The notes under the pieces were generated by a model. It was given only the letters and a program-made list of their open reading frames with translations. It did not search any database and had not been told where the DNA came from. A stretch of DNA of 64,000 nt from an uncultured Nitrospira sp. (lineage in GTDB: Bacteria; Nitrospirota; Nitrospiria; Nitrospirales; Nitrospiraceae). Each line of letters starts with the position of its first letter. Within the stretch, counting starts at the first letter, position 1. The DNA lies in assembly GCA_902500995.1 (NCBI GenBank), contig CABVSR010000004.1, positions 124,001 through 188,000 on the forward strand, in the 5' to 3' direction. The position numbers and the translations under genes are program-made. This document shows positions 41,033-47,363 of this stretch, in pieces.

Positions 41033-41431
41033 ATGAGAGTCACCAAACTTCTCCACACTCGCATGCGCGTCAGCGATATGGATCGCACCATCCGCTTCTA
41101 CCAGCAGGTGTTGGGGTTGGAGGTCTTGGAACGCAAGGTGTCTCCGCGCGGTTCGCACCTGGCCTTTTTGAAAGTCCCCAACAGTGAGGAACTGATCGAA
41201 CTGTGCAGCTTTCCCGCGAGCGGGCCGGTGACGGTGCAGGAAGATCTGGTCCACCTCGCCTTCCAGGTCGAGAATCTGGACGACACCATCCGGAGCCTGG
41301 AATCCAACGGCATCCCGATTACCGATGGTCCCACGCGCACGTCATCCGGCAGCCGGTTTATCTTCATCGACGCGCCGGACGGGTATGAGGTCGAACTCAT
41401 CGAACGCCCGCCCGGCACGGCGCTCGTATAG
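41033..41431 (+). CDS. VOC-family protein, glyoxalase I-like
   Basis: 132 residues with two betaalphabetabetabeta modules. Metal ligands of glyoxalase I are conserved: His in LLHTRMRV, Glu in EELIEL, His in VHLAFQV and Glu in GYEVELIE. FYQQVLGLEVLERK is typical of lactoylglutathione lyase. Methylglyoxal detoxification is likely but not certain, as other VOC enzymes share this pattern. Confidence 0.85.
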   Translation: MRVTKLLHTRMRVSDMDRTIRFYQQVLGLEVLERKVSPRGSHLAFLKVPNSEELIELCSFPASGPVTVQEDLVHLAFQVENLDDTIRSLESNGIPITDGPTRTSSGSRFIFIDAPDGYEVELIERPPGTALV

Positions 41432-41433
41432 TG

Positions 41434-41606
41434 ACCGTCGTTCGTCGCTTGTGAAGCGTCGCTCGCCGTTCGGACACGAATACCTTGTACCCCTGATTGT
41501 CATCTTCACGTATTATCCCCGCATGTGAACCCATTGACGAAATCAAATCCGCCCACGTATTGTGCCTTCGCTTCACGATTCACGAGTGACGAACGACGAA
41601 CAAGGA
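41434..41606. repeat. Degenerate CGTTCGTCGCTTGTGAAGCG / TTCACG array with promoter inside
   Basis: Starts with GACCGTCGTTCGTCGCTTGT and ends with CTTCACGATTCACGAGTGAC, so the two ends are related as inverted copies around the dapF promoter (41534-41563). Same repeat family as in the nuo operon. Confidence 0.65.
41534..41563 (+). promoter_or_regulatory. Promoter for the dapF-like gene
   Basis: TTGACG, 18-base spacer, TATTGT. Transcription would start near 41570, about 45 bases before the ATG at 41615. Confidence 0.5.
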
Positions 41607-41614
41607 GCGCGCAG

Positions 41615-42484
41615 ATGAAGAACGGGTTTTTTCGCGGGCATGGACTCGGCAACGACTATCTGGTCATGGATCCCAAGGAGCTGAGCTTTACCCTCTCTCC
41701 CGGGAGAATCCGCGGCATTTGCGATCGCCACTGGGGACTCGGCAGTGACGGCATCCTCGCGCTGGTCCCCTCGAAGAAGGCTGATTTCGGGTTGCGCATC
41801 TACAATCCGGATGGCAGCGAAGCGGAGAAATCCGGCAACGGGCTCCGCATCTTCGCCCGCTACCTGCATGCCACCGGCAAAACGAAAAAACGCGCCTTCA
41901 CGGTCGAGACCAAGGGCGGCCTTGTCTCGATCACGCTCCATGTCGATCGCCACGGGGATGCGGCGGCGGCCACGGTCGAAATGGGCCAAGCCACGTTCCA
42001 ACCGGCGGCCCTTCCCTGCACCTTGCCCGTCGATGAATTGATTCAGGCTCCCATTCAAGCCGCAGGGCGGTCATTGGAATTTACGGGAGTCAGCGTCGGC
42101 AATCCCCACTGCGTGGTCTTCAAAAAAGCCGGAGAGGCCTGGACGCGTGAGGCCCTACTCGAACTGGGACCTGCGCTCGAAAACCACGCCCTGTTTCCCA
42201 AGCGCACCAATGTTCAACTCGCCGTGCCGACCGGGCCGAAAGAAATCTTTATCCTGATCTGGGAACGCGGCGCAGGGGAAACCCAGGCTTCCGGCTCCTC
42301 TTCCTGCGCGGCGGCGAGCGCCGCCGTGAAGCTCGGGCTGGTGAAAGGTCCGGTCACGGTGAAGATGCCGGGGGGCACACTGAACATCGAGGTCGCGCGC
42401 GATTTCAGCCTGACCATGAAGGGGCCGGTCGCGGAAGTGGCCAGAGGGACACTCAGTCCGTCATTTGTACGTGGGCTTCGCTAA
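41615..42484 (+). CDS. dapF: Diaminopimelate epimerase homologue with Ser in place of both catalytic Cys
   Basis: 289 residues from ATG 41615, which has AAGGAG at 7 bases. The two-lobed DapF fold is clear: HGLGNDYLVMD, RHWGLGSDGIL, YNPDGSEAEKSGNGLRIFAR, VSVGNPHCVVF, FPKRTNVQL and ERGAGETQASGSSSCAAA (segments given separately). The active-site thiols of DapF are normally CGNG and ACGSGA. Here residue 73 is Ser (SGNG) and residue 226 is Ser (ASGSSS). Residue 73 matches the numbering of the known catalytic Cys73. Proton shuttling by a Cys pair is therefore not possible as usually described. Either a Ser pair works, or the protein has another substrate. It is upstream of uvrC. Confidence 0.88.
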   Translation: MKNGFFRGHGLGNDYLVMDPKELSFTLSPGRIRGICDRHWGLGSDGILALVPSKKADFGLRIYNPDGSEAEKSGNGLRIFARYLHATGKTKKRAFTVETKGGLVSITLHVDRHGDAAAATVEMGQATFQPAALPCTLPVDELIQAPIQAAGRSLEFTGVSVGNPHCVVFKKAGEAWTREALLELGPALENHALFPKRTNVQLAVPTGPKEIFILIWERGAGETQASGSSSCAAASAAVKLGLVKGPVTVKMPGGTLNIEVARDFSLTMKGPVAEVARGTLSPSFVRGLR

Positions 42485-42609: not shown

Positions 42610-44424
42610 ATGACTGACACCCGCGACGCGCTCCAATCCAAGCTCGATCATCTTCCCGCGCAGCCGGGCTGCTATCTGTTCCGGAATGCCGGCAAAGAAA
42701 TTTTGTATGTCGGCAAGGCTGCCGTGCTGTCCGACCGGGTGCGCTCCTATTTCCAGCAGGGGCATGACCAGACACCCAAAACCAGTCTGCTGGTCAGCGA
42801 AATCGCCGATCTCGAAACCATCGTCACCCGCTCCGAGCTGGAAGCGCTGATCCTCGAAAGCAATCTGATCAAGCGCCACCGCCCGCGGTTTAATATCGTC
42901 CTGCGCGACGACAAGCAGTACCCCTATCTGCGCTTGCCGATCAAGGAAGACTTCCCCCGCCTGTCCATCGTCCGGCGCGTTCACAGAGACGGGGCGCTCT
43001 ATTACGGGCCCTACACGCCGGCGGGCGCGCTCCGGGAAACGTTGAAGGTCATTCGCAAAGCGTTTCCCCTGGCCACGTGCGATATCGACATCGACGGCAA
43101 GGCCGAACGAGCCTGCATCGAATTCGAAATCAAACGGTGCATGGCGCCCTGCACCGGCAATCAGTCCCGCGAAGACTATCACCTGATCGTCAAACAGGTC
43201 CGCCAGTTTCTCGAAGGCCGGGACCGGGAACTCCTCGACAGTCTGCGCCAGGCCATGGAGTCGGCGGCGGAACGGGAGGAGTTCGAGGAAGCCGCCCGGC
43301 TGCGCGATCGTCTCTTCAGCGTCGAGCGCACGCTCGAAAAACAGCGCATCACCCAGGTTGCCACCACGGATCAGGACGTCATCGGGATTGCGCGGCAGGG
43401 CACGGCCGCAGACCTCCAGCTGTTGTTCGTGCGCGGAGGCCTGCTCATCGGCAGGAAAGATTTCTTCTGGCCGCAATCCGCCGACTCCCCCGATGAGGAA
43501 CTGGCCCGCTCCGCGATCGAGCAGTTTTACAACAAGGAAGGGCAACCGCCGAAAGAGCTGCTGGTGCCGACTGAACTGGGCGACGCCCCGCTGATCGAAC
43601 AATGGCTGAGCGAGAAACGCGGCGAGGCCGTGCGACTTCTGGCTCCGGAACGGGGGACGAAACATCAGCTGGTGCTGCTCGCGGAAGAAAATGCCGCCGC
43701 CGCCATTGCCGACCATCTCCGGAACGAGGCCTTGGACCAGCAGGCCACGGCCGAACTCAAGCGGCTGCTCCGCCTGGAGACCAGGCCTCGCCGCATCGAA
43801 GGGTTCGACATTTCAAACATCATGGGCAATCAATCGGTCGCCTCCCTCGTCGTCTGGGAAGACGGGCAGGCGAAAAAATCCGACTATCGCAAATTCCGCA
43901 TTCAGACCGTGGAAGGCGCCAACGACTTTGCCAGCATGCAAGAGGCCGTGATGCGGCGATACGGCGCCGCGGAGGATCTCGCCCGGCCGGATCTGATTCT
44001 GATCGACGGCGGCCTTGGCCAATTGAGCGCCGCCCTCGAAGGATTGAAACAAGTCGGCCAGGAGCACATCCCGATCATGGGGCTGGCCAAAGCGCGGGGA
44101 GAAAAAGAGGAACGGATCTTCCTTCCGGGCCGCAAAAACCCCATCCTGTTGCGTCCGACCTCGCCCGCCACACATCTGGTGCAGCGAATCCGCGACGAAG
44201 CCCACCGGTTTGCCGTGACGTATCACCGGAATTTACGGGGCAAGGCTTTGCTGTCATCCGAACTGGACCAGATTCCCGGGATCGGCAAGGTCCGCCGCGC
44301 GCGTCTCCTCAAACAATTCGGCAGCCTGTCACACATCGCCGCCGCCACCGATGATCAACTCAAGGCCGCCGGCCTCGCCCCGGCCACCATCACCGCACTA
44401 CGTACAGCCCTCAGCCCATCCTGA
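42610..44424 (+). CDS. uvrC: Excinuclease ABC subunit C
   Basis: 604 residues. GIY-YIG domain at the N-terminus (GCYLFRNAGKEILYVGKA), UVR motif (AAEREEFEEAARLRDRL), the RNase-H-like C-terminal nuclease domain (RRIEGFDISNIMGNQSV, LILIDGGLGQL) and a double helix-hairpin-helix at the end (IPGIGKVRRARLLKQFGSL). Makes both incisions in nucleotide excision repair together with UvrAB. Confidence 0.98.
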   Translation: MTDTRDALQSKLDHLPAQPGCYLFRNAGKEILYVGKAAVLSDRVRSYFQQGHDQTPKTSLLVSEIADLETIVTRSELEALILESNLIKRHRPRFNIVLRDDKQYPYLRLPIKEDFPRLSIVRRVHRDGALYYGPYTPAGALRETLKVIRKAFPLATCDIDIDGKAERACIEFEIKRCMAPCTGNQSREDYHLIVKQVRQFLEGRDRELLDSLRQAMESAAEREEFEEAARLRDRLFSVERTLEKQRITQVATTDQDVIGIARQGTAADLQLLFVRGGLLIGRKDFFWPQSADSPDEELARSAIEQFYNKEGQPPKELLVPTELGDAPLIEQWLSEKRGEAVRLLAPERGTKHQLVLLAEENAAAAIADHLRNEALDQQATAELKRLLRLETRPRRIEGFDISNIMGNQSVASLVVWEDGQAKKSDYRKFRIQTVEGANDFASMQEAVMRRYGAAEDLARPDLILIDGGLGQLSAALEGLKQVGQEHIPIMGLAKARGEKEERIFLPGRKNPILLRPTSPATHLVQRIRDEAHRFAVTYHRNLRGKALLSSELDQIPGIGKVRRARLLKQFGSLSHIAAATDDQLKAAGLAPATITALRTALSPS

Positions 44425-44589
44425 CTCATACCGCCGTCGAGGCCGGCCCCAGGCTGTATGCGGTTCGATACACCCGTATCTGAATGGGTACGCTGATGCA
44501 ACCAGCCCGCTTCGTCGGAGATCTGAGGGAGGCCTATTTTCTCCTTGCAGGACGGTCGTTTCATCGTTAGGCTGTGTCTCCGTCATTCC

Positions 44590-44608
44590 CTACGTATCAG
44601 GTACGTAG
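44590..44608 (+). promoter_or_regulatory. 19-bp inverted repeat upstream of the amine-oxidase-like cassette
   Basis: CTACGTA-TCAGG-TACGTAG, a perfect 7-bp inverted repeat, lies 54 bases before the first gene of the cassette (44662). It has the size of a dimeric regulator operator. TAGATT right after it could be a -10 with a poor -35. The remaining part of 44425-44661 holds a small GATAC-ACCC-GTATC hairpin after uvrC. Confidence 0.45.
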
Positions 44609-44661
44609 ATTGCCTCTTCCAACGAGTAATCCGTCTTTTACGCTTACCAGGAGGCATCCCG

Positions 44662-45294
44662 ATGAGGATGTGGCCCATCGCCGGCATACTGACCCTCGTG
44701 CTTCTGTCCGCCTGCACGACCCCACCGGAAATCAAACAGGCGCTCGCGACGAAAGATCAAGCTTACGCCGACAATGAACGGCTCATGCAGCAGTACCGCG
44801 AGCTCGTCAGCCGGATCACCACGCGGCATCAACTCTGGTACCGGCATATCCAAACCAGACTCAAACTGAATCTCGCGCTGGAGTGGGCCACGACCAACCC
44901 CAGACGCATCGAAGTGGCGGATCCCGAGCTGGCACTGGATGATGCCGCACTGCTGGGCCCCGAGGTGATGGCGGTCGTCAACGACATCCGCCTGAAATCG
45001 TTGCCCGAGCGCAAGGGGCCGAACGGCCAGCCGGTCTTCCTGGCGGGAACGGGCGACATGAGCCATCTGATCCAATCACTTCCCGAATTGATCACCCGTG
45101 TCGAGCGCCTGGTCGCCCAGAGCTCGCAGAAGCCCTCCTCACTCGATCTTTCCGCCTTCGACCGTTACCGCACGAACGTCCAGGCCTTGCGCCGGATCAA
45201 CGGCATGATCAAACACTATCTCGATGTCGATGTCACCCTCGACCGCGGCGAGGTTCAGTCACTGGCCGAGTCCCTGCAGCAGGTGCGCCGATGA
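44662..45294 (+). CDS. Lipoprotein of unknown function (cassette gene 1)
   Basis: 210 residues from ATG 44662, which has AGGAGG at 7 bases; the longer frame to 44545 is not needed. A lipobox (LVLLSAC) gives Cys at about residue 17. The mature protein is mostly helical with heptad-like stretches (IKQALATKDQAYADNERLMQQYRELV) and no known domain. It overlaps the next frame, and the cassette is tightly spaced, so all five genes are likely one operon. Confidence 0.85.
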   Translation: MRMWPIAGILTLVLLSACTTPPEIKQALATKDQAYADNERLMQQYRELVSRITTRHQLWYRHIQTRLKLNLALEWATTNPRRIEVADPELALDDAALLGPEVMAVVNDIRLKSLPERKGPNGQPVFLAGTGDMSHLIQSLPELITRVERLVAQSSQKPSSLDLSAFDRYRTNVQALRRINGMIKHYLDVDVTLDRGEVQSLAESLQQVRR

Positions 45295-45329
45295 CCCCGC
45301 GAACCGAGCGCAACCAGAAGGAGGCTCCG

Positions 45330-46040
45330 ATGGCCGGACGCAATGTCTCGTGGCTCGCCCTCGCCGCGCTTCTCCTCATAGCCCCGGGATGTCATTCGAT
45401 CCACAGCGGATCGGTCCGCGACCTCATCCAACTCGAAGGCACGAAGATCGATGCGGCTCAAACGAACATCGATACGTTTCAGAAAGAGACGGAGGAGCGG
45501 ATCAAACTGCTGGAGAAGGCGCGCGCCGAACTGAATGTGAGCTTCAAGTCTCTGCAGACCATGGAAGCCAAACATCGTTTTTCCCTCGGAGCCTTCCGCC
45601 AGGTGACGAACAAGAAGGGCGAAGCGGCCTATGCCGCCGCCTACCTCCTGAGCCTGATTCATATGGCCGAGGCGCAGGGCCTGGAGAAGGCCGTCTGGGA
45701 TCAATTCGAAGAGGATTTCTGCGGCCTGCGCGATTCGGCCAACGCGCTCAACGATTCCTGGAAACGGACCGCCACCCTGCATGCGGAAATCCAGCGGTTT
45801 GCCAAGAAATCCGCCCTGGCGTCCGTGGATCCTGAGTTGGTCACCGCGCTGATGGAGCAGGCGCCCGGCGGCTCGGACCGGATCATGGAAATCCTAGACC
45901 ATTCCCGCACCGTCAACGACGCGCTGGAGGAAGTGGTCGGGGCGCGGATACTGCGGATCGGCGGATTGGACCGCGCGCAGGGCGTCACGGCCGATCTGGT
46001 GGAACTCCTCGACCGGATGCACACAGAAGAAGGACCGTAA
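45330..46040 (+). CDS. Coiled-coil lipoprotein of unknown function (cassette gene 2)
   Basis: 236 residues from ATG 45330 with AGGAGG at 5 bases. Signal and lipobox (LLLIAPGCHS). A coiled coil follows (residues about 35-75; DAAQTNIDTFQKETEERIKL), then helical segments. No recognisable catalytic domain. Probably envelope-anchored on the periplasmic side. Confidence 0.85.
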   Translation: MAGRNVSWLALAALLLIAPGCHSIHSGSVRDLIQLEGTKIDAAQTNIDTFQKETEERIKLLEKARAELNVSFKSLQTMEAKHRFSLGAFRQVTNKKGEAAYAAAYLLSLIHMAEAQGLEKAVWDQFEEDFCGLRDSANALNDSWKRTATLHAEIQRFAKKSALASVDPELVTALMEQAPGGSDRIMEILDHSRTVNDALEEVVGARILRIGGLDRAQGVTADLVELLDRMHTEEGP

Positions 46041-46051
46041 CGGAGGCCTCC

Positions 46052-46573
46052 ATGAACCGCAGCATCGACGGCATCGTCACCTTTCTTCAGGACAACGACA
46101 ATCTGATCAAACAACTGATGGAGACCGCGGAATCCGCCACGACGGAGATCGAGGCCTTGTCTACACAGGTGGACCATGCCCGCGAGGAGGCCCAAATTCT
46201 GGTGGACCAACTCGGCACGGCGGAGTTCAGCGTCGGGCGCGACGATGACACCAAGGTCCGGCAAACTGCGCTGCTCGAAGCGGTAGCGACATTGCGGAAG
46301 AAGTTCGAAACCTATAAGAACGATCCTTTGCGGCGCGGCATCTATGCAGCCGAGATCTCCAACCTGTACCTCCAGTTGGCCAATACGTACAACAATGAGA
46401 CCGTCGCCCGCATCGTGCCCTTCGAGGCCGAGGAGATCAGCACATACAAGGATCTGCTGAACAAGGCGGTCCTGGACGCGGCCACGCGCAAGCGGCGCGC
46501 CGCCGTCATCAAGGCGGCTGCGCATGTCTCAAAATTGGCGCTCGGTGTGGCCGGCAAGGTGGCCCTGGTCTGA
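46052..46573 (+). CDS. Coiled-coil protein (cassette gene 3)
   Basis: 173 residues, no signal peptide. N-terminal half is helical with a heptad pattern (LIKQLMETAESATTEIEALS), and the C-terminus is a basic helix followed by a small hydrophobic segment (HVSKLALGVAGKVALV) that could touch the membrane. Function unknown. It starts 11 bases after gene 2 and ends 1 base before gene 4. Confidence 0.82.
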   Translation: MNRSIDGIVTFLQDNDNLIKQLMETAESATTEIEALSTQVDHAREEAQILVDQLGTAEFSVGRDDDTKVRQTALLEAVATLRKKFETYKNDPLRRGIYAAEISNLYLQLANTYNNETVARIVPFEAEEISTYKDLLNKAVLDAATRKRRAAVIKAAAHVSKLALGVAGKVALV

Positions 46574-46574
46574 C

Positions 46575-47363
46575 ATGATGAACCCTGACACTCCGAAATG
46601 GATCGCGTTGCCATTGCTGCTCGCACTCGGCGCCGGCTGCACGCTCGATGCGGGATCGCGGGGGCCGTTCGGTCCTGAAGATCCTGAAACGGCCATTCCG
46701 AAACAGGCGCTTCCCGCGCAGCCGCCGGCCAGGCATGCGCTCGCCTTTACGGCCGATGAAACTCCCGGCCGCCACCTCAAGCCCAAAATGGCCGGCACAG
46801 TCGCGGACACGGCGTTGAAACGGTCGGCGAATCCTGGCGCGATGCTCACGACGACCGACATCGCCGCCTTGCGTAAAGCGGCCGAGGCCGATCCGCGTGT
46901 GGCCGGGCTGCTGGGCAGCCGCTGGGGCTTCGTGGAGGCAAATCGAGTCGCGCCTGAGGGCAAGGTTTCGTTCGGCTGCTGCCGGGACGAGGCACGGTTC
47001 GCCAGGCTCACCTACTTCAGCTACAGCCAGAATGTCGCGGTCGAGGTCCGCATGAAGGAGCAGCTGGTCGTCGATGCCGGACGCCGCGAGAGCTACCTCC
47101 CGCCCGAGGGGCCGCAGGATGTCGAACGGGGCATCGCCTTGGCCCGCGCCGACTCGCGGCTCGCAGGCCAGGTGGAATCCCTCCAGGGTCACGGGCTGTT
47201 GATGCAACCCGATATCGGCTTGTTCAGAAACGATCCTGGATACGGGCACCGCACGATCTGGATCACCTTTTCCCAGGGGCAGGATGGGGATCCGAAATTC
47301 TGGGCCGTCGTGGACCTGACCGACGACCGCGTGTTGGACGCGGGACAGGAACCGCCCCGCTAG
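46575..47363 (+). CDS. Lipoprotein resembling copper amine oxidase N2/N3 domains (cassette gene 4)
   Basis: 262 residues. Lipobox LLLALGAGC, then a low-complexity linker. The region LRKAAEADPRVAGLLGSRWG, with VNQ-type follow-up FARLTYFSYSQNVAVEVRMK and LVVDAGRRES, resembles the N2 domain of copper amine oxidases (ADPRV, RR...Y.R, VVD) and the part DVERGIALARADSRLAG resembles the start of N3. The similarity is by eye and weak, but the next gene encodes a protein like the catalytic domain, which supports it. A split enzyme is inferred. Confidence 0.7.
   Translation: MMNPDTPKWIALPLLLALGAGCTLDAGSRGPFGPEDPETAIPKQALPAQPPARHALAFTADETPGRHLKPKMAGTVADTALKRSANPGAMLTTTDIAALRKAAEADPRVAGLLGSRWGFVEANRVAPEGKVSFGCCRDEARFARLTYFSYSQNVAVEVRMKEQLVVDAGRRESYLPPEGPQDVERGIALARADSRLAGQVESLQGHGLLMQPDIGLFRNDPGYGHRTIWITFSQGQDGDPKFWAVVDLTDDRVLDAGQEPPR

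Follow-up and report, generated by a model that had tools for sequence, protein, structure and literature searches.

A DapF homologue with serine at both catalytic cysteine positions is probably the diaminopimelate epimerase of Nitrospira

The window analyzed here, a stretch of 64,000 nucleotides from an uncultured Nitrospira sp. (GenBank assembly GCA_902500995.1, contig CABVSR010000004.1), carries between a glyoxalase-family gene and uvrC an open reading frame for a homologue of the diaminopimelate (DAP) epimerase DapF (Table 1). In textbook chemistry, enzymes of the DapF type work with a pair of cysteines, as thiolate and thiol. A first-pass annotation of this DNA had claimed that both are replaced by Ser in this protein, at residues 73 (SGNG) and 226 (ASGSSS), and reading the codons bore this out (TCC in both cases). 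It had also described a gene with intact fold motifs, a good ribosome site, and a promoter. The fold motifs are indeed intact and the ribosome site is well formed, whereas support for the promoter is weak: there is one plus-strand match to the consensus at 9 of 12 positions, and scanning both strands together gave 2 matches versus 0.4 expected in shuffled sequences. Further along the window, downstream of uvrC (44545–47363), 3 proteins were tested (starting at 44599, 45327, and 46524), and none matched Pfam at E<=0.001.

Table 1. Features at the Ser/Ser dapF locus (window coordinates).
Feature	Position	Strand	Evidence
Glyoxalase-family gene, conserved upstream neighbour	41033..41431	+	PF00903
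Weak sigma-70-like promoter match, TTGACG-18-TATTGT, 9/12	41534..41563	+	consensus match only
Shine-Dalgarno-like AAGGAG, 7 nt before ATG	41602..41607	+	sequence read directly
Ser/Ser DapF homologue, 289 aa	41615..42484	+	ORF, PF01678 and TIGR00652 matches
Lys72 codon AAA, directly before Ser73	41828..41830	+	sequence read
Ser73 codon TCC (first catalytic Cys position of DapF)	41831..41833	+	sequence read; context EKSGNGLR
Ser226 codon TCC (second catalytic Cys position of DapF)	42290..42292	+	sequence read; context ASGSSS
uvrC, conserved downstream neighbour	42610..44424	+	TIGR00194

The protein scored 178.9 bits against PF01678 (cut-off 34.7) and 225.8 bits against the DapF model TIGR00652 (cut-off 114.65). 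Neither the PhzF profile (PF02567) nor the proline racemase profile (PF05544) matched it at E<=0.001, PF01678 being the only match. Its AlphaFold2 model (pLDDT 91.3) has the two-domain DapF fold, and in a Foldseek search DapF structures ranked first (best PDB match 8qzy_A, E 1.7e-34). The matches include the engineered H. influenzae DapF mutants C73S (2q9h) and C217S (2q9j), each with one of the same substitutions; these are single and man-made, whereas the Nitrospira pair arose in nature, is fixed, and comes with further invariant changes. Helices start in the model at residues 74 and 227, so that Ser73 and Ser226 would lie just before the two central helices of a DapF-like fold, which is also where the HisR catalytic residues are described to lie (PMC11602996). 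The 2 catalytic Cys are missing from all 129 Nitrospirota Ser/Ser rows. Likewise, the PROSITE signature N-x-(DN)-(GS)-(SENGFT)-x(4)-C-(GI)-N-(GA)-x-R, used as printed in PMC8225329, is absent from all 130 Ser/Ser and all 22 Ser/Cys rows and occurs in 87 of 97 Cys/Cys rows (residues given in the order first/second catalytic position); with Ser allowed, 130, 22, and 87 rows carry it. The window protein thus resembles canonical DapF (TIGR00652, PF01678; e.g., 8qzy, 1bwz) in HMM scores, fold, length, DAP-binding residues, and occurrence as the sole copy in a DAP-pathway genome, but both catalytic Cys are Ser, the active-site signature fails, the Ser/Ser clade is remodelled around the Ser73 helix, and the gene lies at uvrC, outside the lysA operon. 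Because it lacks the defining Cys pair, we filed it apart from canonical DapF, as a DapF-family variant that is most likely a DAP epimerase.

The Ser pair is a property of the lineage. All 81 rows from 80 related genome loci were Ser/Ser, as were all 129 rows of the Nitrospirota Ser/Ser clade, so the pair is neither chance nor sequencing error. The relatives from the genome scan are labelled Nitrospira, Nitrospiraceae, or Nitrospirota, and 2 are labelled uncultured Nitrosospira. The 2 Ser do not vary in any of the 129 rows, the window's among them, and neither do Lys72, Tyr15, and Ser44. Ser226 is encoded by TCN in 128 of 128 rows; at Ser73 the codon is TCN in 108 and AGY in 20 of 128, with no row showing Cys or Thr, although single-base routes between the 2 codon sets pass via Cys or Thr. 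The dN/dS of the window gene against nine relatives is 0.03–0.08, in agreement with the earlier claim that the gene is not decaying. Sequencing error, frameshift, and relic are ruled out by these values together with the Ser/Ser pair in all orthologue rows. The neighbourhood is also conserved: uvrC follows the Ser/Ser gene in 80 of 80 loci, and the glyoxalase gene precedes it in 76 of 80, some loci ending before that point. In one genome (locus L242, G219:C22, 4920–7134), the glyoxalase gene and the Ser/Ser dapF are duplicated in tandem before uvrC, which accounts for the one locus with 2 rows.

To place the Ser/Ser gene among other DapF types, both residues were read in 157 distinct genomes (138 plus 19 more), mostly from the matches of a phylum sample (148 genomes, 132 with a PF01678 match) and a class sample (156 genomes, 148 with a match); a few came from lysA stretches. 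In family f1, to which the window's genome belongs, 47 genomes were read: 34 have the Ser/Ser gene outside the operon, 11 a Ser/Cys gene inside it, and 2 are cut at contig ends; no genome has both, and none has Cys/Cys. The 10 genomes of f2 and the 12 of f14 are Ser/Ser, 5 of f31 are Ser/Cys, 3 of f11 carry both a Cys/Cys and a Ser/Ser gene, and the remaining 80 are Cys/Cys. Six f1 or f2 genomes of the class sample (G070, G246, G266, G216, G251, G273) gave no match at all, which we take as assembly gaps. In the window's genome, 97.6% complete, a PF01678 search found the Ser/Ser gene and no second one, so the second canonical dapF that the first-pass annotation had named as an argument for a relic is rejected. 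The Ser/Cys genomes, from other Nitrospiria, are G141, G060, G149, G150, G153, G157, G159, G160, G168, G172, and G173 in f1 and G177, G180, G184, G187, and G191 in f31; their gene, in which only the first Cys is replaced, adjoins lysA and is the sole DapF matched in those that were HMM-searched. On a tree built without the catalytic columns the Ser/Cys type needs 2 changes, which suggests 2 origins. Among viral contigs, 66 pattern matches included no relatives of the Ser/Ser DapF.

In relatives with a Cys/Cys or Ser/Cys gene, the operon order is lysA-dapF-dapA-dapB. Of 46 loci with an operon-type dapF of these 2 types (some genomes counted twice), 44 have lysA beside it; the 2 exceptions, L201 and L229, have short flanks, and in f31 dapA was not detected beside the lysA-dapF pair. 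In the Ser/Ser genomes, dapA is the next gene after lysA, and dapF is missing from the operon. This holds for 32 genomes in which both residues were read (17 of f1, 9 of f2, and 6 of f14, the last retaining a gap of approximately 480 to 570 bp between lysA and dapA). The f1 total with this arrangement is 18, among them G018, whose only DapF gene is cut, and 2 more f1 genomes, G156 and G166, outside the count of residue-read genomes, also have an operon without dapF. In f11, the operon holds the Cys/Cys gene (2 of 2 genomes examined), and the Ser/Ser gene lies elsewhere, beside rpe- and fmt-like genes recognised by eye. On the tree without catalytic columns, which left out 48 of 144 rows (near-duplicates and a Streptomyces plasmid row), the 32 Nitrospirota Ser/Ser rows form one clade (100/100) on a long stem (0.92); a LysA tree places the Ser/Ser f1 and f2 genomes close to the Ser/Cys genomes. 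The best explanation of this pattern would be that the Ser/Ser gene displaced an older, operon-borne dapF, an order of events that we infer from gene order and trees.

A DAP epimerase is needed for lysine and the cell wall, and Nitrospira grows autotrophically on mineral medium. The window's genome encodes LysA, DapA, DapB, DapL (621 bits, cut-off 593), and a MurE with the DNPR motif, which we take to mark the mDAP type. DapL makes LL-DAP, whereas LysA and mDAP-type MurE consume meso-DAP; therefore, an epimerase is needed. DAP dehydrogenase (Ddh) was not found in this genome, which rejects a Ddh bypass there, and a single weak match (G009) appeared among 41 family genomes. The window gene thus sits in a genome that needs the conversion of LL- to meso-DAP. 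That the protein is inactive or vestigial, its loss of function being tolerated through uptake of lysine and DAP or through Ddh, is extremely improbable: the missing Cys are all that was found in its favour, and against it stand the lack of Ddh, the retention of LysA, DapA, DapB, and DapL, the strong purifying selection, and the fixation of the Ser pair across f1, f2, and f14.

We also looked for another enzyme of the same fold that could act as a hidden epimerase. Of the 19 genomes searched, 18 carry a PhzF relative, with Ser/Ser and Ser/Cys types alike, and G019 lacks one; G081 is the only searched genome with a full-length proline racemase, and the other weak PF05544 matches, in 14 f1 genomes, G081, and G214, hit the PhzF gene. 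Both candidates were rejected on this distribution. The PhzF-family protein of the window's genome (G000:C34:2548-3426) is distinct from the Ser/Ser gene and conserved in Nitrospirales with either DapF type. In G019, a complete, single-contig f14 genome, the Ser/Ser DapF is present and neither PhzF nor proline racemase was matched, which leaves the Ser/Ser protein as the one protein of DapF fold detected in that genome.

None of the 156 class genomes has a MurI match that reaches the cut-off, and PF01177 had no match in the window's genome. The lack of MurI throughout the class raises the idea that the Ser/Ser protein doubles as glutamate racemase, like the bifunctional DapF of Chlamydia (PMC5885031), with which it shares the DapF fold and a host without MurI. 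This we consider very unlikely, since MurI is missing whatever the DapF type, the window protein reaches 49.9 bits against a cut-off of 350 for the bifunctional model NF038284, and the chlamydial racemase activity needs both Cys (Cys72 and Cys207; PMC5885031).

We then compared the active sites of the 2 types. At 14 positions, a residue found in at least 97% of Ser/Ser rows occurs in under 10% of Cys/Cys rows, 11 of these positions being at residues 15–101, around the Ser73 helix; Tyr15, Ser44, Lys72, Leu77, and Ile79 are among them. PhzF uses Glu and Asp as bases in the same fold. The remodelling could thus mean that the protein is a DAP epimerase whose base is Lys72, Tyr15, the Ser44 region, or an activated water rather than Ser73 and Ser226, a reading we find improbable. 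Ser/Ser relatives on plasmids have Met or Arg at 72 and keep both Ser, which weakens Lys72 as a universal new base and leaves Ser as the shared element; Tyr15 is also found in a Bacteroides Cys/Cys DapF; and Ser/Cys lineages, which share only Ser73 of the pair, lack Lys72. The invariant Cys36 is not supported as a substitute base, since 83 of 97 Cys/Cys rows have Cys at this position too. The loop that precedes the first catalytic residue is described as making no direct hydrogen bond to the ligand (PMC12039745).

The residues that bind DAP are kept. N13, N64, N75, N163, H165, N199, E217, and R218 are invariant in 129 of 129 Ser/Ser rows. Substrate contacts of H. influenzae DapF are N64, G74, N75, N157, N190, E208, R209, G218, and S219 (PMC8225329), and the equivalents N64, G74, N75, N163, N199, E217, R218, and G227 are invariant, with Ser or Thr at 228, in the same rows. 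The sole checked DAP contact that has changed is the equivalent of Gln44, which is Gly in the Ser/Ser set; 49 of 90 Cys/Cys rows also have Gly there.

The main evidence against a DAP epimerase with a Ser pair comes from engineered relatives. Single Cys-to-Ser mutants of PddB keep <0.1% activity, and the PddB paper cites the same for Mt-DapF (PMC8225329); activity is greatly reduced by such changes in HisR (PMC11602996) and almost lost in C83A and C221A of CgDapF (PMC5296763). Cys-to-Ser changes are stated to hinder catalysis (PMC12039745), and a review explains the preference for Cys over Ser by its lower pKa and easier desolvation (PMC8142540). An analogy in support is the proline racemase superfamily, in which Ser-Cys and Ser-Thr types are listed (PMC4364671): a 4-hydroxyproline epimerase with a natural Ser/Cys pair, and thus Ser for the first Cys in the same two-base fold, is active (PMC4113996). 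It is a precedent from another family with another substrate; in what is available of PMC4113996, only the Ser/Cys pair is an epimerase, the Ser/Thr pair is a dehydratase, and no Ser/Ser enzyme appears.

The loss of activity in engineered enzymes (PMC11602996, PMC8225329) and the Ser/Thr dehydratase (PMC4113996) would also fit a protein with some other function, such as a one-base elimination, the epimerisation of a different amino acid, or binding without catalysis, with meso-DAP supplied by an unrelated epimerase that has escaped recognition, for instance a PLP racemase of relaxed specificity. Two further observations point the same way and may count against the DAP-epimerase reading. The 3 f11 genomes retain a Cys/Cys DapF beside the Ser/Ser gene, so the 2 types may not be interchangeable, and outside the phylum, where the search covered plasmids, Ser/Ser genes sit in non-lysine clusters. 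These genes, on plasmids of Streptomyces sp. NBC_01216 (L309) and Agrobacterium vitis (pRvVAT039a, L310), share with the Nitrospirota set the Ser pair, Tyr15, and SGNG(L/I)R, but differ in residue 72, in a best identity within the set of 38–43%, and in their gene cluster. That cluster consists of an iron-containing redox enzyme, a 2OG-Fe dioxygenase, the Ser/Ser dapF-like gene, a molybdopterin oxidoreductase, and an aldo/keto reductase, and perhaps serves specialised metabolism. On a tree without motif columns 15, 72, 73, 77, 79, 226, and 228, both plasmid genes, each a long branch, join the Nitrospirota clade at 91/83, which is suggestive of a single Ser/Ser clade. Plasmids of Sphingomonas morindae (L316) and Pantoea dispersa (L317) carry DapF-like proteins of a fourth active-site type, in which the first residue is Cys and the second Ser (GSGSC motif).

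We nevertheless consider another function unlikely. It would require an unknown enzyme in every Ser/Ser lineage without an operon dapF, G019 has no other DapF-fold protein detected, and each f1 genome has one of the 2 types, Ser/Ser or Ser/Cys, as would be expected if these were equivalent. Moreover, DAP-specific residues are kept here, whereas PddB, whose substrate has changed, is without the distal-contact Asn and Arg set (PMC8225329). The first-pass annotation had left the choice between a new epimerase chemistry and a new function. New chemistry is favoured, because the Ser/Ser protein has no other DapF beside it where dapF has gone from the lysA operon and because its DAP-binding residues are kept; an activity deduced in this way and the plasmid relatives in other clusters temper the choice.

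Altogether, the Ser/Ser protein is probably the working DAP epimerase of Nitrospira, a DapF variant in which both acid/base Cys are Ser. This reading is based on computed evidence: the sequence itself, the lack of a second copy, the loss of dapF from the operon, purifying selection, the predicted fold, and the conservation of the binding residues. Its activity on DAP would follow from these, and the Ser pair (or a rebuilt pocket) would epimerise LL- to meso-DAP in place of the Cys pair, with Ser rather than Lys72, Tyr15, or water as the presumed base. Going further, we tentatively suggest, with rather less than even confidence, an ancient Ser/Ser DapF subfamily that epimerises amino acids without cofactor or thiol by means of 2 hydroxyl bases and that replaced the Cys enzyme as housekeeping DAP epimerase in Nitrospira and an outlying Nitrospirota family, perhaps for resistance to nitrosative, oxidative, or metal stress. 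The idea that a thiol-free enzyme suits nitrite oxidisers draws on the redox sensitivity of CgDapF (PMC5296763). In the CC-licensed PMC literature, as far as its texts were available, we found no description of a naturally Cys-less DapF.

The only recognisable DapF of Nitrospira, a key nitrite oxidiser, is thus Cys-less, which implies either cysteine-free chemistry or an undiscovered replacement enzyme. A family model labels such a protein a DapF equivalog without an active-site check, and Cys-directed DapF inhibitors are not expected to act on Ser/Ser organisms. The lineage offers a natural test of hydroxyls in two-base epimerisation across a whole group of globally important nitrite oxidisers: if hydroxyls fail, a missing DAP epimerase is indicated, and if the two-hydroxyl reading is true, Cys would not be obligatory for two-base amino-acid epimerases.
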